From assembly GCA_019310485.1 (NCBI GenBank), contig JAFDEF010000015.1:1-64000 (forward strand): 64,000 nucleotides of DNA, given 5' to 3'. A program made the translations under genes and the position numbers. The DNA comes from Deltaproteobacteria bacterium (GTDB lineage: Bacteria; Desulfobacterota; DSM-4660; Desulfatiglandales; HGW-15). Positions 20,940 to 29,417 of this stretch are shown piece after piece (positions within the stretch are counted from its first letter, which is position 1; each line of letters begins with the position of its first letter). Below the pieces are notes generated by a model. That model saw only the letters and a program-made list of their open reading frames with translations. It was not told the DNA's origin and made no database searches.

Positions 20940-21025
20940 CTACATAATTAAAACGCGATCAGCCTGACTGGCTGTCTCTTGTTTTTCCTGGCATAAATCT
21001 TCATCGAGGAAAGCACGGCTTATTG

Positions 21026-21967
21026 ATGGATGTTATTCGTGATCTGGATTCGCTGCAAGAACCGCTTCGCAATCCTGTGCTGACCATAGGCAACTTTGAC
21101 GGGGTACACAGAGGCCACTTAGCGCTTTTTGAAAAAGTCAAGCAAAGGGCCAAGGCCATCGGGGGGCAGTCCGCGGTTATGACATTTGAACCCCACCCTA
21201 CGAAAGTGATGAACTTCGGGAAAGGGCCCCCTCTCATCACTCCTGTTAATCAGAAGCTGGATCTAATAAAGAAAGCGGGGATCGAAGTAATTTTTTGCCT
21301 TCCTTTTACACGTCAATTTGCCGCCATTTCTGCAGAGGATTTTGTCAGGAAGATCCTTGTTCAAAAAATTGGTATTAAGGAAATTGTCGTTGGCTACGAC
21401 TACACCTTTGGGCACAACCGCGAAGGGAACATTTCGTTCTTGAAGAAAAGGGGCGCTGAGCTGGGCTTTGTTGTTCATATTGTTGAGCCCGTCCATATTG
21501 ATAACAAGCTGGTGTCAAGCACTTCCATCAGAAAGCTTGTGCAGGAAGGAAATCTTGAGGAGGCAAAAAAATACCTCGGAAGGGACTACCAGATTCAGGG
21601 GACAGTGGTAAAGGGTCAAAGCAGGGGCGTAAAACTGCTCGGTTTTCCCACCGCCAATCTGAAATTGATTGATGAACTGTTTCCAAAACGCGGCGTATAC
21701 GCCGTAACCGTCCTGATTGACGGCAAAAAGTATCAGGGGGTCACAAATATAGGCCACAATCCCACATTCGGGAGTAACGCATTGTCGCTTGAAACCCATG
21801 TGCTTGATTTCAATAAAAATATTCTTGGAAAAACTATAAAAGTGAATTTTGTTCAAAGATTGAGGGATGAGAAATCTTTTCAAAGTGCTGAAGCACTCTC
21901 CAGGCAGATTGCCAAGGATGTTGAAGAGGCGAGAAAAATCCTGAAGCAGCGCAAAAATAGCCAGTAG
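21026..21967 (+). CDS. ribF: Bifunctional riboflavin kinase / FAD synthetase
   Basis: A 313-residue RibF converting riboflavin to FMN and then to FAD in the cytoplasm. The N-terminal nucleotidyltransferase domain shows VLTIGNFDGVHRGHLALF (HxGH-type motif) and VSSTSIRKLVQEG. The C-terminal flavokinase domain shows GVKLLGFPTANLKL and GVTNIGHNPTFG. The length is normal. ATG at 21026 is used; a TTG one codon upstream is possible. It lies next to the Rnf operon, whose RnfC, RnfD and RnfG subunits need FMN, but it appears to have a separate transcript since a promoter precedes rnfC. Confidence 0.93.
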   Translation: MDVIRDLDSLQEPLRNPVLTIGNFDGVHRGHLALFEKVKQRAKAIGGQSAVMTFEPHPTKVMNFGKGPPLITPVNQKLDLIKKAGIEVIFCLPFTRQFAAISAEDFVRKILVQKIGIKEIVVGYDYTFGHNREGNISFLKKRGAELGFVVHIVEPVHIDNKLVSSTSIRKLVQEGNLEEAKKYLGRDYQIQGTVVKGQSRGVKLLGFPTANLKLIDELFPKRGVYAVTVLIDGKKYQGVTNIGHNPTFGSNALSLETHVLDFNKNILGKTIKVNFVQRLRDEKSFQSAEALSRQIAKDVEEARKILKQRKNSQ

Positions 21968-22115: not shown

Positions 22116-22184
22116 TTCCAGATTGTGCTGATTGCTGCACCTAAGCCCATTTGAATTGAGCGACTCTCAAGTTTGCCTGGGACT

Positions 22185-23513
22185 ATGAACAAAGGATTGC
22201 TGACTTTTCCAAAAGGCGGCGTTCATCCGCCGGAATCAAAAGAACTGACAGAGCATTTGCCTGTAGAAGCAGTGCCTGTTCCCTCGCAAGTGGATATTCT
22301 GCTAACCCAGCACTTCGGGGCGCCTTGCGAGCCCGTGGTGAAAAAGAAGGACCAGGTTGCCGAAGGAGATCGCATTGGCGATGTGGAAGCAGGGCTGGGG
22401 GCAAGCGTGCACGCTAGCGTTAGCGGGAAAGTCAAGAACATAGGCTTTGCTGCCCACCCCATAACTGTCAGGGCACCTTGCATCACCATAGAAACAGACA
22501 CTGAGGCTCCTCCCCGCAAGTTTGAACCTTGCGAGTGGTCCAGCCTTTCAAAAGAAGGGCTCCTTGCCAAAATCAAGAAAGCAGGAATAGTAGGTATTGG
22601 GGGCGCGGGATTTCCCACGCATGTGAAACTGTCTCCTCCTCCGGAAGCAAAAGTAGACACCCTGATAATTAACGGAGCTGAATGTGAGCCTTACCTTACC
22701 ACGGACCATCGTCTCATGCTGGAGCATGCGGAGGAAATCATTGAGGGCGCAAAGATTATCCTTACCATTCTTGGCATCAAGCAGGCCCATATTGGCATTG
22801 AGGTTAACAAGGCTGATGCCATTGAGGCAATGATGGAGGCTGTTTCAAAAGCTTCCCTGAACGGTTTTGATGTCAAAGTGGCGCCCCTTAAAGTCAAGTA
22901 TCCACAGGGATCTGAGAAACAACTCATTCAGAGCATAACCGGACGCAAAGTTCCCGGATTCGGCCTGCCCTTTGATGTGGGAGTCATCGTTCAAAACGCT
23001 GGAACCACGAAGGCTATTTATGATGCAGTGGTTCTTGACAAACCCTTGTATGAAAAAGTGATAACCGTGTCCGGGAAAGGGATCAAGAGGCCTGCCAACT
23101 TGCTTGTCAGGATTGGTACAAGAGTTTCCGATATTGTATCCTTCCTAGGCGGGATAAACGAGGACCTGGCAAAAGTAGTGCTGGGCGGGCCCATGATGGG
23201 TTTTGCGGTTCCCAGCCTGGATGTGCCGGTCATCAAGACCACTTCTGGGATCCTATTCTTGACCCAAGATGAAATTGACACGAGCCCTCACGGGCAGTGC
23301 ATTCGGTGCGGGTGGTGCCTTGAGGCCTGCCCTATGGGCCTTTCTCCAAATGAAATAGGCATATACGTTGAAGGAGGACAGGCTGAAAATACGGCCCAAT
23401 TCGGGGTATTTGAGTGTTTCGAGTGCGGCTGCTGCGCCTATGTCTGCCCTGCCAAGAGGCCTCTGGTACAGTTTATTCGGCTGGCAAAAATGAAGGCAAA
23501 GAAAAGCATGTGA
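22185..23513 (+). CDS. rnfC: Rnf complex subunit C (NADH/FMN and FeS subunit)
   Basis: A 442-residue RnfC, the peripheral subunit that handles NAD(H) with FMN and two [4Fe-4S] clusters. The NADH/FMN-binding region has VGIGGAGFPTHVKLSPP near residue 136 and NGAECEPYLTTDHRLM. The C-terminal clusters are QCIRCGWCLEACPMG (about 370) and CFECGCCAYVCPAKRP (about 411). I use the ATG at 22185 (NKGLLTFPKGGVHPPESK); a TTG at 22173 is in frame. It is the first gene of the rnfCDGEAB order seen in many anaerobes. Length is typical of short RnfC proteins without the alanine-rich tail. Confidence 0.94.
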   Translation: MNKGLLTFPKGGVHPPESKELTEHLPVEAVPVPSQVDILLTQHFGAPCEPVVKKKDQVAEGDRIGDVEAGLGASVHASVSGKVKNIGFAAHPITVRAPCITIETDTEAPPRKFEPCEWSSLSKEGLLAKIKKAGIVGIGGAGFPTHVKLSPPPEAKVDTLIINGAECEPYLTTDHRLMLEHAEEIIEGAKIILTILGIKQAHIGIEVNKADAIEAMMEAVSKASLNGFDVKVAPLKVKYPQGSEKQLIQSITGRKVPGFGLPFDVGVIVQNAGTTKAIYDAVVLDKPLYEKVITVSGKGIKRPANLLVRIGTRVSDIVSFLGGINEDLAKVVLGGPMMGFAVPSLDVPVIKTTSGILFLTQDEIDTSPHGQCIRCGWCLEACPMGLSPNEIGIYVEGGQAENTAQFGVFECFECGCCAYVCPAKRPLVQFIRLAKMKAKKSM

Positions 23514-23617: not shown

Positions 23618-24643
23618 ATGGCACCGGAACCCTCCATTCTGGCAGTCTCCGTGTCCCCGCACATCAGGAGCGGAGAATCTGTTGAGAAAATAATGTGGAC
23701 GGTCGTTGCCTGCTTGCTGCCCCCCCTCATCCTGTCTATTTTCATTTTCGGCTTTCAAACCCTGATTATCACCCTGATCAGCGTTGCAAGCTGTGTTGTA
23801 GTGGAAGCCGTTTCTCAAAAGCTCTTGCACCGCCCAATTACAATCAAAGATGGCAGCGCAGTGATCACAGGACTTTTGCTCGCCTACATTATTCCGCCCG
23901 GTGTCCCATACTGGATGCCGATCCTGGGTTCTGTAATGGCCATTTATGTAGCCAAGCATCTTCTCGGCGGCATTGGATTCAATTTTTTCAACCCCGCTCT
24001 TATTGGTCGCGCTTTCCTGGTCGCCACTTTTCCCGTTGCCATGACATCTGCCTGGCTTCCTCCCATTCGCCATGCGTCCATCTTCAAGTACATGGGAGGT
24101 GGGGTGGATGCTGTGTCAACCGCTACACCACTCTATGTTCTCAAACATTACGGACTTGGAGCCGTAATAGAAAAGTTTGGCTCTATAAGTACAATATATG
24201 GAAATTTCTTCATCGGCTGGAGGCCGGGCTGCATTGGCGAGACTTCTGCCCTGCTTCTCCTTCTTGGAGGCCTTTTTCTGCTCTACAAGAAATATATCAC
24301 CTGGCACATACCCGTCTCCATGATCGGGACCATCGCCCTTCTCACGTGGGCATTTGGTGGAGAAAGAGCTTTTGGCGGAGACCCGCTTCTGGCTATTCTC
24401 TCAGGCGGCGTAATAATTGGCGCTTTTTTTATGGCCACGGACTATGTTACATCCCCGTCCCAGCCTACTGCAAAGCTGATATTCGGAGTATGTATTGGGG
24501 CATTAACGGTTTTGATCAGATTGAAAGGCGGGTACCCAGAGGGAGTATGCTATGCGATTCTTTTGATGAATCCGCTGACACCTGCTTTTGAACTGTGGTT
24601 TAAACCCAAGCGTTTCGCTGCACAAAAAGGTGCGCTTAAATGA
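23618..24643 (+). CDS. rnfD: Rnf complex subunit D (membrane, FMN-binding)
   Basis: A 341-residue multi-pass inner-membrane subunit homologous to NqrB. It begins SILAVSVSPHIRSGESVEKIM, typical of RnfD. The covalent flavinylation site is probably STATPL near residue 166, in the position of the S(T/G)AT motif modified by ApbE. Several hydrophobic helices follow. The strongest ribosome-binding site (AGGAGG) is unusually far, about 40 bases before the ATG, so the true start may be a non-standard codon upstream. It overlaps rnfG by 4 bases. Confidence 0.92.
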   Translation: MAPEPSILAVSVSPHIRSGESVEKIMWTVVACLLPPLILSIFIFGFQTLIITLISVASCVVVEAVSQKLLHRPITIKDGSAVITGLLLAYIIPPGVPYWMPILGSVMAIYVAKHLLGGIGFNFFNPALIGRAFLVATFPVAMTSAWLPPIRHASIFKYMGGGVDAVSTATPLYVLKHYGLGAVIEKFGSISTIYGNFFIGWRPGCIGETSALLLLLGGLFLLYKKYITWHIPVSMIGTIALLTWAFGGERAFGGDPLLAILSGGVIIGAFFMATDYVTSPSQPTAKLIFGVCIGALTVLIRLKGGYPEGVCYAILLMNPLTPAFELWFKPKRFAAQKGALK

Positions 24644-25554
24644 GAGAAATTCTGAGAATCACTATTGGCCTGACGGTTTCTTGTCTGATCGCCGCGCTCG
24701 TGATGGGAGCGGTGTTCACCATTACCGACAAGGCGAAAAAGCACAACGAGTACATGAACGTGCAGCAAACCATGCTCGGTCTTCTCGGGTATTCCAAATC
24801 ACATCCTGCACCATCCGAGCTGAAGTTTGAGACTATTTACAGATACATTGTGGCTGAAGGCCAAACCCGCTACCTGGGCTACCTGGTGCCTGTCAAAAAG
24901 AATGGAAAAGAAAATTACGCATTCTTGCTGCTTGATTTAGAAGGTAAACTCAAGAAGCTTTATAGTGTCGATATGAGGCCGGAGGCGGCCATCGAGGCAT
25001 CAGAGAGAGAAAAAGCGCTTCATGAGATTCTAAAGCCACCAAGAAAATTTAACTATGCGGATTCATTTATTATAGCAGTGCTGGGCCGGCAACGCGTGGC
25101 ATACCTTATCCCAGGGGAATTTCCCGGCTTCAAGACTTTTGTAAGAGTTATGCTTGCGCTTGATCCATCCTTCACCATTAAGGGACTTGAAATAATGGAA
25201 CAAGAAGAAGATCCGGGCCTTGGTGGAGAAATTGTCCAGGAATATTTCAAGAACCAGTTTGTAGATAAACCCTTTAAGAAGATTGCATCACTGAAAGTAA
25301 TAAAAAAGCCGCTTCCAAGCGAATACAGGAAGTATCTTGAAAGGAAGAAATGGAAGAAGGGCATGTTTACGCGGGAACAAATTGAGGAGATCCGCAAGAA
25401 ATACCGGAGCGCGGATATCTATGCCCTAACAGGAGCTACTATTTCAAGCAGGGCCGTGACCAATGGTGTGAAGAACATGGTCAAGAAATTTGCTTACAGA
25501 GAAAAGATGCTTGAACGAGTAATTGCCGAAGAAAACATTCAGGCTGCGTTCTAA
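24640..25554 (+). CDS. rnfG: Rnf complex subunit G (covalent FMN)
   Basis: A 304-residue protein with one N-terminal membrane segment (ILRITIGLTVSCLIAALVMG) and a large extracytoplasmic domain. The conserved flavinylation site LTGATISSRAV near residues 262-272 has the threonine to which ApbE attaches FMN. It is somewhat longer than Escherichia RsxG (about 206) because of an insert in the middle. It overlaps rnfD (ATGA), indicating translational coupling, and 139 bases separate it from rnfE. Confidence 0.93.
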   Translation: MREILRITIGLTVSCLIAALVMGAVFTITDKAKKHNEYMNVQQTMLGLLGYSKSHPAPSELKFETIYRYIVAEGQTRYLGYLVPVKKNGKENYAFLLLDLEGKLKKLYSVDMRPEAAIEASEREKALHEILKPPRKFNYADSFIIAVLGRQRVAYLIPGEFPGFKTFVRVMLALDPSFTIKGLEIMEQEEDPGLGGEIVQEYFKNQFVDKPFKKIASLKVIKKPLPSEYRKYLERKKWKKGMFTREQIEEIRKKYRSADIYALTGATISSRAVTNGVKNMVKKFAYREKMLERVIAEENIQAAF

Positions 25555-25693: not shown

Positions 25694-26314
25694 TTGGCAA
25701 CTACAAAGACCCCCTCTCGCCTGGTCTTAAACGGGCTGTTAAACGAAAATCCGATTTTTCGCCTCGCGCTTTCAATGTGCCCGGCTGTCGGTATCAGCAC
25801 CACTGTTATGAACGGGCTGATGCTGGGCACCGCAGTGCTTTTTGTACAGGTCTGCTCCAGTTGCACAATTGCCGCTATCAAAAACTACATTCATCCCCGG
25901 ATTCGCATCCCCACCTATACCCTGACCATTGCAACATGGGTAACGGTAATTGACCTGGTGCTTTCCGCATACGCTCCCGAAGCATATAAGGCGATGGGAA
26001 TCTTTATCAAATTGATAGTAGCCTTTGCTATTATTACCATGCGCCTTGAGGTATTTGCCTGCAAAAACACGGTAGCCATGTCTTTCTGGGATGGCTTGGG
26101 GATGGGACTTGGTTTTATGTTCGGCATGGTTACGCTTGGTTTCATCCGTGAACTTCTTGGGATGGGAACCCTTCTCGGACATAATGTACTGGGGTTTCGC
26201 CCGCTTCTGTTCTTTGCGCTTCCGCTCGCCGGGTTTTTTTGTGTGGGTTTTATGATGGCAATCTTTAATTACGTGGAGCTCGTTTTTAACAGGAGAAAGA
26301 AAAGGAGAGGCTGA
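25694..26314 (+). CDS. rnfE: Rnf complex subunit E (membrane)
   Basis: A 206-residue RnfE/NqrD-type integral membrane protein with about six helices. It shows the family elements ENPIFRLALSMCPAVG and LEVFACKNTVAMSFWDGLGMGLGF, whose cysteine lies in the membrane-embedded [2Fe-2S] site shared by RnfA and RnfE. TTG start at 25694, selected for GGAGGG eight bases upstream. It precedes rnfA by 6 bases. Confidence 0.93.
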   Translation: MATTKTPSRLVLNGLLNENPIFRLALSMCPAVGISTTVMNGLMLGTAVLFVQVCSSCTIAAIKNYIHPRIRIPTYTLTIATWVTVIDLVLSAYAPEAYKAMGIFIKLIVAFAIITMRLEVFACKNTVAMSFWDGLGMGLGFMFGMVTLGFIRELLGMGTLLGHNVLGFRPLLFFALPLAGFFCVGFMMAIFNYVELVFNRRKKRRG

Positions 26315-26320
26315 GAGACA

Positions 26321-27289
26321 ATGGCACGCTTAAGACGAATTACTTACCTTACCCTGGGCTTTCTCCTGCTGGCGTACTTGCTGGTTTTCTCGGGGTGTGC
26401 AGGCTCTCAGAATCGGTTCATAAAAAAGACATCTTTTAGGGGGACCCACAGTATTCTAATTACCTTTGCCGGTCCGGTTGACGAGGAGTGGGCCACAAAG
26501 GCGTCAAACTATCGCGTGTACGAAAAGCCAGATCCTGACATTGTGCTCAAGATTAGCACGATAGAGCTGAGTACGAACAGGCAAACGGTTATTCTCCACT
26601 TTGAAGAACCCCTCAACCAGAATCAGCCCCACATGGTAACCATGAGGGGAATTATGACTGAGGGAAAATCCGTGGGCACGGCCATTGTCAAGGTAAGGAA
26701 ACTTTACCTTGGTTACCTGTTTTCCATCCTAATCGGTGCAATGCTCGTACAAAACTTTGTGTTCACCAAGTACCTGGGTCTCTGCGTGTTTTTTGGGACT
26801 TCGCAGAAAAGGTCAACTGCCGTTGGGATGGGAGTCACCTTTACTATTGTGATTGTGGCGAGTGCAATGATGTCGTGGTTCCTTTACCAGTTTTTCTTAA
26901 AGCCCTTTCACCTGGATTTTCTGCAGATCATTGTATTTATCGGCCTGGTTTCCCTGTCTGTGCAGGCGGTGGATACGATTCTTAGAAAGGTGAACCCGAT
27001 GCTGTTTAAGGCGTTCGGCGTGTACCTAGTTCTCGTAATCGCCAACTGTATTATCCTGGCCGTTCCCCTTATTCTGGCCGATAATGAGTACAATGCTGCC
27101 GAGAGTCTCATGCTCGCGCTTGGTGCCGGGCTTGGATTCTTGATTGCTCTGTTTCTAATGTCCTCTGTACGAGAGCGCCTTGAGCTCGCTAATGTTCCGC
27201 CCACGTACAGAGGACTGCCGATAGCATTTGTTGTGGCAGGGCTTTTTGCCCTGGCATTCCTGGGGTTTTCAGGAATGTCAATTTTTTGA
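26321..27289 (+). CDS. rnfA: RnfA with an N-terminal lipoprotein/Ig-like extension
   Basis: A 322-residue protein. Residues from about 128 onwards are a complete RnfA/NqrE (LYLGYLFSILIGAMLVQNFVF, KYLGLCVFFGTS, VSLSVQAVDTILRKVNP) with about six helices. Ordinary RnfA is about 190 residues. The extra N-terminus has a lipoprotein-type signal with lipobox LVFSGC (Cys26) and then a beta-rich stretch of about 95 residues (ITFAGPVDEEWATKASNYRV, VILHFEEPLNQNQPHMVTM) resembling SbsA/Ig-like domains. If Cys26 is lipidated, the domain sits outside the cytoplasmic membrane at the N-terminal end of RnfA. The coding frame is continuous, so this is not two genes. Confidence 0.9.
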   Translation: MARLRRITYLTLGFLLLAYLLVFSGCAGSQNRFIKKTSFRGTHSILITFAGPVDEEWATKASNYRVYEKPDPDIVLKISTIELSTNRQTVILHFEEPLNQNQPHMVTMRGIMTEGKSVGTAIVKVRKLYLGYLFSILIGAMLVQNFVFTKYLGLCVFFGTSQKRSTAVGMGVTFTIVIVASAMMSWFLYQFFLKPFHLDFLQIIVFIGLVSLSVQAVDTILRKVNPMLFKAFGVYLVLVIANCIILAVPLILADNEYNAAESLMLALGAGLGFLIALFLMSSVRERLELANVPPTYRGLPIAFVVAGLFALAFLGFSGMSIF

Positions 27290-27392: not shown

Positions 27393-28259
27393 ATGGATCC
27401 AACGCTTATTAAACTGGCAATTGGCGGCATTGTATTACTTGGCTGCATAGGTTTGTTTTTTGGAATAGGCCTGGCCCTTGCCGCCCATAAATTTGCTGTA
27501 AAAGCCAATCCAAAAGTCGAAGCGGTGCTTGAAGTTTTGGCAGGCGCACAGTGAGGCGGGTGCGGCTTCGCAGGTTGCGAAGGATATGCTGAAGCAGTGG
27601 TTAATGATCCTGAGGTGCCACCAAATCTTTGTTTTCCAGGAAAAGAGGAAGTGGCGAAAAGGGTGGCAGAAATCACCGGGAAAAAGATGGCCGCGGTGGA
27701 AAACATGATTGCCGCGGTGCGTTGCTCAAGGATCGAAGGCAACGTGCAAAAAGGCCTCTCCTATATTGGCGACCAGACCTGCGAAGGGGCCAACCTGGCC
27801 TTTGGCGGACCAATGGCCTGCAAGTTTGCCTGCATAGGTTTCGGGGATTGTGCGAGGGCCTGCCCATTCGATGCTATCACAATGGAGAACAACTTTCCCC
27901 GTGTGGACTCTGTTGCCTGCGTTGGATGCGGTACGTGCGTGCGTGCTTGCCCTAAGAAAATAATAGAGCTTGTACCCCGCAGCCCCAGAGTCTGGGTTCC
28001 GTGCAGTACGCAAGACCCCGGCAAAGATGTCAGGCAGGTGTGTGAGGCCGGGTGCATCTCGTGTAAAATGTGTGTCAAGGTTTGCCCCGCAAAAGCAGTT
28101 ACAATGGATCAAAACAGGGTTCTTATTGACCATAAAAAATGTATCGAATACGGGCCGGAATGCGGTGAAATATGCGTTGAGAAATGTCCTAGAAATATTT
28201 TCAGATATTACCGCCCGGATCAAAAGAAGATATCGGAAATACACGCTTCGGCCGCTTAG
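27393..28259 (+). CDS. rnfB: RnfB, predicted selenoprotein (Sec54)
   Basis: Reading through TGA at 27552-27554 gives a 288-residue RnfB. It begins with one membrane segment (LIKLAIGGIVLLGCIGLFFGIGLALAAHKFA) and reads VLEVLAGAQ-U-GGCGFAGCEGYAEAVV. RnfB proteins have GANCGGCGYAGC here, so UGA replaces the first of four cysteines (U54, C57, C62, C80) of the Fe-S-domain cluster. Ferredoxin motifs follow (ACIGFGDCARACP, CVGCGTCVRACP, CISCKMCVKVCP, CGEICVEKCP). RnfB accepts electrons from ferredoxin on the cytoplasmic side. ATG at 27393. A perfect hairpin follows the UGA. A UGA-terminated annotation would give a 53-residue fragment plus a headless ferredoxin protein. Confidence 0.9.
27566..27582 (+). 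promoter_or_regulatory. bSECIS-like hairpin of rnfB
   Basis: CUUCGC pairs perfectly with GCGAAG around an AGGUU loop, beginning 11 bases after the UGA. The loop starts 17 bases after UGA with G in its second position, fitting the bacterial SECIS pattern. The AGGU loop is shared with the HdrA-like gene hairpin. Confidence 0.75.
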
Positions 28260-28355
28260 AACGAGAAATTCAAAACTTGTTCGACACAAGGAATTGTGTT
28301 GCCATCAAGGCTAGTTGGTGGTAAATGTTTTGTAATTTTTGAGTGGAGGCACACA

Positions 28356-29417
28356 ATGGGAAGAATAAACAACATGCTTCGTCAGGATGGGGGCATGGAT
28401 AGAAGGTCATTTTTGAAACTTTCAGGCTTGCTTGGAATCGGGGCGGCATCAGCGACCATTGTACCCGTATCAGCAGAAGCAGTCCGCTTTAACAGAAAAT
28501 TGGTAAAGGTTTCCAAAACCAGGCTCGCTATGGGTACGTTTGTTTCCATGACCCTCATACACCATTCAACCGACCAGGCCCAGGAGGCTATGGGCCTTGC
28601 TTTTGAAGAAATTGATAGGCTCGCTGCCCTCTTAAGCCGTTTCAACGAGTCTGCCGCGGTGGCACAGCTCAACAAGGAGGGTTACCTCAAAGGTGTTCCT
28701 CCTGAGCTAATGCTTGTTGTTTCCAGGGCCCTTTATTATAACAACCTGACTGGCGGCAGCTTTGATATTACGGTCAAGCCGGTAATAGACCTTTTCGTAA
28801 AAGACTTCGAAGGTAGCAAGAAACGAATACCCTCCGAGGCCGAGCTTCAGAAGGTGCTGAGATTTGTCGGATCGGAAAAGGTCAAGGTAAAGCAGGGATC
28901 CATCTTTTTTAAGAGACCGGGTATGGGTATCACCCTCGATGGAATTGCAAAGGGCTTCATTGTTGATCGGGCATCGGAGATCCTGACCAGGAACAAGATA
29001 AAGAACCATCTTATAAATGCTGGTGGCGACATAAGAACCAAGGGAAGCAAGGCGAAGGGAAGGCCCTGGAGTATAGCCATCCAGGACCCTTTAAAGAGAA
29101 AGCATTACCCGGACATTATCCAGATGAGAGACGGCGCCATTGCAACATCGGGGAACTACGAAGTCTACTTCGATCGCGAAAAGATGTTTTACCACATTGT
29201 TGACCCCAAAACAGGGCTATCACCGGAAATGACCACCAGCGTCTCTGTTACGGCCAGAACCACGATGGAGGCTGACGCCCTTTCAACCAGTGTATTTGTA
29301 ATGGGTCCCCGAAAAGGAATGGCGTTCATCAACAGGTTGCAGAACTGCGAATCTCTCGTTGTTTCAAGGGGAGGTACTCTCTCGAAATCCCGGGGCTGGA
29401 AAAGCGCGGCCATATAG
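28356..29417 (+). CDS. apbE: ApbE-type FAD:protein FMN transferase
   Basis: A 353-residue flavin transferase with an N-terminal twin-arginine signal (MDRRSFLKLSG followed by a hydrophobic stretch), so it acts outside the cytoplasmic membrane. ApbE attaches FMN to threonines of RnfG and RnfD, whose sites are encoded upstream. Visible family features are TRLAMGTFVSMTL, GGSFDITVKPVIDLF, ITLDGIAKGFIVD and NAGGDIRTKGSKAKGRPWSI. The ATG at 28356 has GTGGAGG upstream; an earlier in-frame start at 28296 would give a signal peptide with a long unlikely leader. The last 89 bases overlap the 3' end of hflX on the other strand. Confidence 0.92.
   Translation: MGRINNMLRQDGGMDRRSFLKLSGLLGIGAASATIVPVSAEAVRFNRKLVKVSKTRLAMGTFVSMTLIHHSTDQAQEAMGLAFEEIDRLAALLSRFNESAAVAQLNKEGYLKGVPPELMLVVSRALYYNNLTGGSFDITVKPVIDLFVKDFEGSKKRIPSEAELQKVLRFVGSEKVKVKQGSIFFKRPGMGITLDGIAKGFIVDRASEILTRNKIKNHLINAGGDIRTKGSKAKGRPWSIAIQDPLKRKHYPDIIQMRDGAIATSGNYEVYFDREKMFYHIVDPKTGLSPEMTTSVSVTARTTMEADALSTSVFVMGPRKGMAFINRLQNCESLVVSRGGTLSKSRGWKSAAI

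Follow-up and report, generated by a model that had tools for sequence, protein, structure and literature searches.

The rnfA gene of the window, the whole stretch of 64,000 nucleotides of Deltaproteobacteria DNA that was analysed, encodes an RnfA subunit fused to an N-terminal export signal and an Ig-like domain, and this fused RnfA apparently marks a divergent, undescribed Rnf subtype of Desulfobacterales and Desulfobulbales. The architecture is not confined to one genome, and within the subtype other Rnf subunits are altered as well.

Reality of the fused rnfA gene

26321..27289, + strand: fused rnfA gene, 322 aa, composed of signal sequence, Ig-like domain and RnfA (open reading frame and translation; full length kept in 80 loci)

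The gene is a single uninterrupted frame of 322 codons, of which the ATG start is located 6 nt past the rnfE stop, and the sequence AAGGAGAGG lies 8-16 nt 5' of this ATG. By scanning 85,000 species, a total of 128 relatives were confirmed and the best 80 loci were analysed; the fused frame was intact in all 80. The earlier note had described an RnfA fused to an extra N-terminal part, and this description is borne out, since the same architecture is shared by all of these best loci in other Desulfobacterota and the whole frame is open in each, with no frame error. Within an order-level sample, the fused frame was open in 10 of 40 related genomes, or in 11 of 41 when the genome of the window itself is included. 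The carriers belong to Desulfobacterales and Desulfobulbales and are mostly Desulfobacterota MAGs, and the cultured carriers are Desulfopila aestuarii DSM 18488, Desulfofustis glycolicus DSM 9705, Desulfosediminicola flagellatus and Desulforhopalus sp.

The N-terminal domain is under purifying selection and evolves as protein, because the rates of difference at codon positions 1, 2 and 3 among 27 relatives were 0.30, 0.22 and 0.59, respectively. It was detected in 29 of 85 genomes of the window's order, in one copy each and always within a frame of 314-403 aa, and no stand-alone copy was present in these 85 genomes, indicating that the domain is only ever a part of fused RnfA. An artefact, with the true start near residue 125 and the upstream part being separate or non-coding, might be considered from the in-frame ATG and GTG codons at about residues 105-118 of the window RnfA. 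These internal codons, however, are without a Shine-Dalgarno-like sequence; such a sequence precedes in-frame starts near residues 101-140 in 10 of 81 loci, the window not being among them, and no internal start is conserved. In addition, the upstream part evolves as protein, folds confidently and is kept in all relatives. An internal start of rnfA was thus rejected and the artefact deserves next to no credence; the fusion is confirmed to be real, arising neither from a misplaced start codon nor from a frame artefact.

Organization and phylogeny of the rnf cluster

21023..21967, + strand: ribF (FAD synthetase/riboflavin kinase), upstream neighbour, also in several relatives
22173..23513, + strand: rnfC, canonical, with RnfC_N, Complex1_51K, SLBB and Fe-S domains
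23618..24643, + strand: rnfD
28296..29417, + strand: apbE flavin transferase at the cluster end (conserved neighbour in relatives)

Fused RnfA is always encoded within rnfCDGEAB(-apbE) clusters, and the order in the window and in complete fusion loci is C-D-G-E-A-B-ApbE, often with ribF in front. RibF, whose gene lies just upstream of rnf, is a plausible partner of a complex so rich in flavins. The curated cut-offs are exceeded by RnfC and RnfD, and that of NF005503 by RnfB, while RnfG is under its curated cut-off, and RnfE is under TIGR01948 yet above PRK12405.

On the phylogenetic tree, all the fused RnfA proteins form one clade (support 100/100) on a stem of 2.3 changes per site; neither the canonical RnfA of the window's order nor the solved RnfA fall within it. 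Since all the traits of the subtype arose on one long branch, their association represents one evolutionary event and provides no independent support. A survey of 395 genomes of the phylum identified RnfA-like matches in 144 and the fusion type in 14; the fusions scored at least 365 bits and the others at most 212 bits, with no intermediate among the matches listed.

The Tol2-type Rnf of D. toluolica (PMC5109826), with a large RnfB and an RnfC without NADH domain, is likewise a non-standard Rnf of Desulfobacterota, but in the fusion type RnfB is small (about 290 aa) and RnfC is complete, with Complex1_51K and SLBB domains. Canonical Rnf paralogues of the same order as the window (loci L012-L028) often stand beside a long, Tol2-type-like rnfB frame of 427-515 aa or more, most of these frames ending at the locus edge. 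Near the fusion-type cluster of loci L058 and L059, the opposite strand carries a further rnfC/rnfD-like pair, which is divergent.

Signal sequence and membrane topology

26321..26398, + strand: signal sequence, residues 1-26, with RLRR n-region, hydrophobic core and lipobox FSG↓C26 (sequence, hydropathy; aligned Cys in about 30 of 81)

The lipobox pattern [LVIF][ASTG][GAS]C is matched in the window by FSGC at residues 23-26. Therefore the lipobox at Cys26, which the earlier note had pointed out, stands for the window protein; as a general trait it does not hold, because an aligned lipobox Cys was found in about 30 of the 81 fused RnfA (32 by alignment, with L035 and L092 judged improper by eye), and the remainder carry signal-peptidase-I-type sequences. 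The window protein and most of its Desulfobacterales relatives have the lipobox, and the fused RnfA of Desulfobulbales carry signal peptides of the LAQA↓E type. A lipoprotein identity for fused RnfA in general was accordingly rejected. Export is predicted for all 81 proteins and is thus general to fused RnfA, and lipidation is a predicted trait of a sub-branch.

Positive charges of the RnfA core sit in loops that, by the positive-inside rule, place the N-terminus in the periplasm, in agreement with the inverted topology of RnfA and RnfE (PMC12174285). Because of this charge pattern, the Ig-like domain should be located outside the membrane, in the periplasm; the same sequence rule supports the position on the outer face that had been assigned to the domain from the window alone.

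Fold and conservation of the Ig-like domain

26417..26698, + strand: exported Ig-like (Big_5/SbsC-type) domain, residues 33-126, 94 residues (AlphaFold, Foldseek, Big_5 in 36 of 81, invariant columns)

When residues 28-127 were modelled alone by AlphaFold, an all-beta sandwich of about seven strands was obtained (pLDDT 94, pTM 0.85). The closest folds found by Foldseek were S-layer Ig-like domains, among which SbsC was superimposed with an rmsd of 1.4 A over 93-95 positions. The beta-rich, Ig-like nature proposed in the earlier note is thus upheld by structure prediction. Pfam Big_5 was matched by 36 of 81 members with a best E-value of 2.2e-6, and the domain of the window itself gave an E-value of 0.099 and 13.8 bits against the curated threshold of 23.6. 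For the full-length RnfA, the model is of modest confidence (mean pLDDT 78, pTM 0.64), so that the orientation of the domain on the membrane is not fixed by it. The fold is common to the S-layer Ig-like domains of SbsC/SbsB and Sap (Pfam Big_5), but the RnfA domain differs from these in being single, in being tethered to a membrane pump subunit and in having its own invariant E..DPDI...H motif: F39, P72, D73, I74 and H104 are invariant among 81 sequences, and E68 and D71 nearly so.

The invariant His104 and the (near-)invariant acidic residues might form a CopC-like site for copper or another metal, by which the domain would sense or buffer metal beside the pump, all the more as CopC-like folds are the second group of Foldseek matches. 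The rmsd to this group is about 3-4 A, however, far from the 1.4 A to SbsC, a non-metal S-layer domain, and the Pfam match is Big_5. The copper ligands of CopC include an N-terminal His. No conserved His was found in the alignment at the mature N-terminus of fused RnfA, and on this ground the CopC metal site was rejected; a metal-related function as a whole is very improbable.

The RnfA core

26708..27277, + strand: RnfA core, residues 130-319, six TM helices, Cys155 and Cys243 (PF02508; TIGR01943 below cut-off; alignment to solved RnfA)

Residues 134-319 match Pfam Rnf-Nqr (PF02508) with an E-value of 3.9e-46, and the best-scoring NCBIfam model is TIGR01943 rnfA, with 194.4 bits under a cut-off of 229.3. 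Since the solved RnfA and NqrE chains all start, in the alignment, within a few residues of window residue 133, about 127 residues are extra in the window RnfA. Fused RnfA has in common with canonical RnfA/RsxA (A. woodii 9eri, C. tetanomorphum 7zc6, A. vinelandii 8ahx) the six-helix core, both [2Fe-2S] cysteines, the predicted N-out topology and the position within rnfCDGEAB; Cys155 and Cys243, corresponding to A. woodii RnfA C25 and C113, are both kept in 81 of 81. It differs from them by the 127 extra N-terminal residues (export signal and Ig-like domain), by the score under the TIGR01943 cut-off (194 versus 229 bits) and by changes in residues neighbouring the cluster, namely T110 to I/L, T111 to A (81/81) and P26 to V (81/81). 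NqrE of Na+-NQR (V. cholerae 7xk3) shares a homologous fold and the ligands with fused RnfA, but lacks the exported domain; the partners of fused RnfA are RnfB and RnfC, not NqrF and NqrA.

As fused RnfA is the sole RnfA in the window's genome, which is 94% complete, it must serve as the core subunit. Some genomes hold both the fused and the canonical type of RnfA.

Loss of a cluster ligand in RnfE

25694..26314, + strand: rnfE, without the second [2Fe-2S] ligand cysteine
26027..26029, + strand: RnfE codon 112 (Ala) at the position of A. woodii RnfE Cys108, motif KLIVAFA (alignment)

The intramembrane [2Fe-2S] cluster of A. woodii is bound by four cysteines, C25 and C113 of RnfA and C25 and C108 of RnfE, and mutation of the cluster cysteines led to loss of two Fe and abolished growth (PMC11889175). 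At the position of RnfE C108, the fusion type carries Ala in 78 and Ser in 2 of 80 loci, whereas Cys is invariably found in canonical RnfE of the same order (19/19) and in solved RnfE/NqrD (4/4). The flanking LIV..xIIxxRxE segment is aligned without gaps, and the equivalent of RnfE C25 is kept in 79 of 79 readable fusion-type loci. The four-cysteine [2Fe-2S] site (AE1), to which RnfA and RnfE contribute two each, is therefore not found in the fusion type. Residues of RnfE close to this position are changed as well: N107 to F (80/80), P102 to K/R (80/80) and V106 to A (78/80). No universal replacement cysteine was identified in RnfE, Cys56, Cys123 and Cys183 each being present in only 51-58 of 80 loci. 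The two members with Ser (L061 and L065) branch off first in the fusion clade on a tree with the root drawn at midpoint, and this branching suggests a path from Cys through Ser to Ala.

A probable selenocysteine in RnfB

27393..28259, + strand: rnfB, 288 aa, read through an in-frame TGA
27552..27554, + strand: TGA codon 54 of rnfB, probable Sec, first ligand of the N-terminal [4Fe-4S] (B8) motif
27566..27582, + strand: SECIS-like hairpin CUUCGC-AGGUU-GCGAAG

The TGA of rnfB stands exactly where the N-terminal CxxCxxxxC..C motif has its first cysteine; in A. woodii, this motif is the site of the mobile shuttle cluster B8 (PMC11889175). Among 80 readable loci, this codon is TGA in 28, as in the window, and TGC or TGT in 52, and neither TAA nor TAG was found at the position. 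A hairpin with a GGN(U) apical loop follows the TGA, with a mean folding energy of -8.8 kcal/mol in TGA loci versus -5.8 kcal/mol in Cys loci, although it is weak in some TGA loci; the folding energy of a long stretch was uninformative as to a SECIS (z -0.4). The genome of the window encodes both SelB (388 bits, cut-off 242) and tRNA-Sec (69 bits, gathering threshold 47). From these features of the sequence, RnfB is probably a selenoprotein in which Sec54 replaces the first B8 cysteine.

Enlargement of RnfG and a proposed role of the exported domain

24640..25554, + strand: rnfG, 304 aa, with FMN-attachment motif TGAT (about 100 aa beyond canonical paralogues)
24814..25056, + strand: RnfG insertion region 1, about residues 59-139 (alignment with canonical RnfG)
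25276..25386, + strand: RnfG insertion 2, about residues 213-249, just ahead of the FMN-attachment motif (alignment)

Fusion loci encode an RnfG of about 300 aa, versus 193-217 aa in canonical paralogues of the same order. The extra residues fall in two places, one separating the membrane anchor from the FMN domain and the other directly preceding TGAT, which is retained. In A. woodii, RnfA/E is the major contact of RnfG (PMC11889175). Partial distance correlations of N-domain divergence among 51 operons were 0.40 with the RnfG insertion, 0.54 with RnfD and 0.22 with ApbE, and -0.02 with RnfC, -0.02 with RnfE and -0.16 with the RnfA core; this pattern points weakly to the periplasmic face, as RnfD exceeds RnfG and fast-evolving parts may correlate for other reasons.

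Taking these observations together, we consider it somewhat probable that the Ig-like domain is a fixed periplasmic module for docking or guiding the enlarged RnfG, with which it would make contact. The rigid domain would be exported by means of a cleavable signal sequence, which in the branch of the window is of the lipoprotein kind; the chain would then re-enter the membrane as the six RnfA helices in the usual N-out orientation, leaving the domain on the periplasmic side of the RnfA/RnfE heterodimer. In this position it would dock or guide RnfG, the FMN shuttle that swings between RnfA/E and RnfD, and by keeping FMN-G close it might offset the altered membrane cluster, such help in electron transfer being conjectural.

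Signal and domain could instead be an aid to topology or assembly that forces N-out Sec insertion or stabilizes RnfA/E, with no role in electron transfer. RnfA must indeed be N-out, and export is retained in all 81 members in spite of variation in the signal type and in much of the domain sequence; but canonical RnfA reaches the N-out orientation although its tail is just a few residues long, and the invariant, non-structural DPDI and His104, together with the co-occurring RnfG insertions, exceed what topogenesis needs. We regard such an aid as the rather unlikely explanation.

The exposed conserved surface of the domain could also recruit a periplasmic cytochrome or another carrier, by which Rnf would exchange electrons on the outside as well. 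Periplasmic cytochromes are common in sulfate reducers. The Rnf of M. acetivorans has an added cytochrome (PMC12174285), and electron exchange on the outer face has been proposed for the Methanosarcina Rnf with its multihaem cytochrome. The window, however, contains no open reading frame with at least two CxxCH motifs, and frames with at least three occurred in no more than 5 of 80 flanks, where their positions were scattered. A linked multihaem cytochrome was thus rejected, none being regularly present near the fusion loci in these 80 flanks, and recruitment of an external redox partner is improbable.

Implications for the Rnf mechanism

No description of the RnfA N-terminal domain, of the missing RnfE cysteine or of Sec in RnfB was found in the open-access literature. 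With about an even chance of being correct, the fusion type is a naturally occurring Rnf subtype whose entire branch, running from the shuttle cluster of RnfB by way of the RnfA/E membrane cluster to FMN-G, has been rebuilt: the intramembrane [2Fe-2S] site retains three of its four cysteines, the proposed Na+-site residues beside it are replaced, a Sec ligand is frequent in the RnfB shuttle cluster, RnfG is enlarged and a periplasmic Ig-like module is added. Such an Rnf would have an unconventional cluster with a non-Cys fourth ligand, or no cluster, and a different ion coupling.

As a redox-driven ion pump (ferredoxin:NAD+ oxidoreductase), Rnf is both ancient and widespread, and its mechanism is disputed with respect to the passage of ions through RnfA/E or RnfD and to the way RnfG shuttles. 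Mutants of A. woodii in the RnfB shuttle cluster and in the [2Fe-2S] cysteines are dead. Dozens of sulfate-reducer lineages carry the subtype, some of them with no other Rnf, and it constitutes a natural experiment on the Rnf mechanism, in which one cysteine of an essential cluster is gone in every member and the periplasmic docking face appears rebuilt. The cultured members make this subtype testable.
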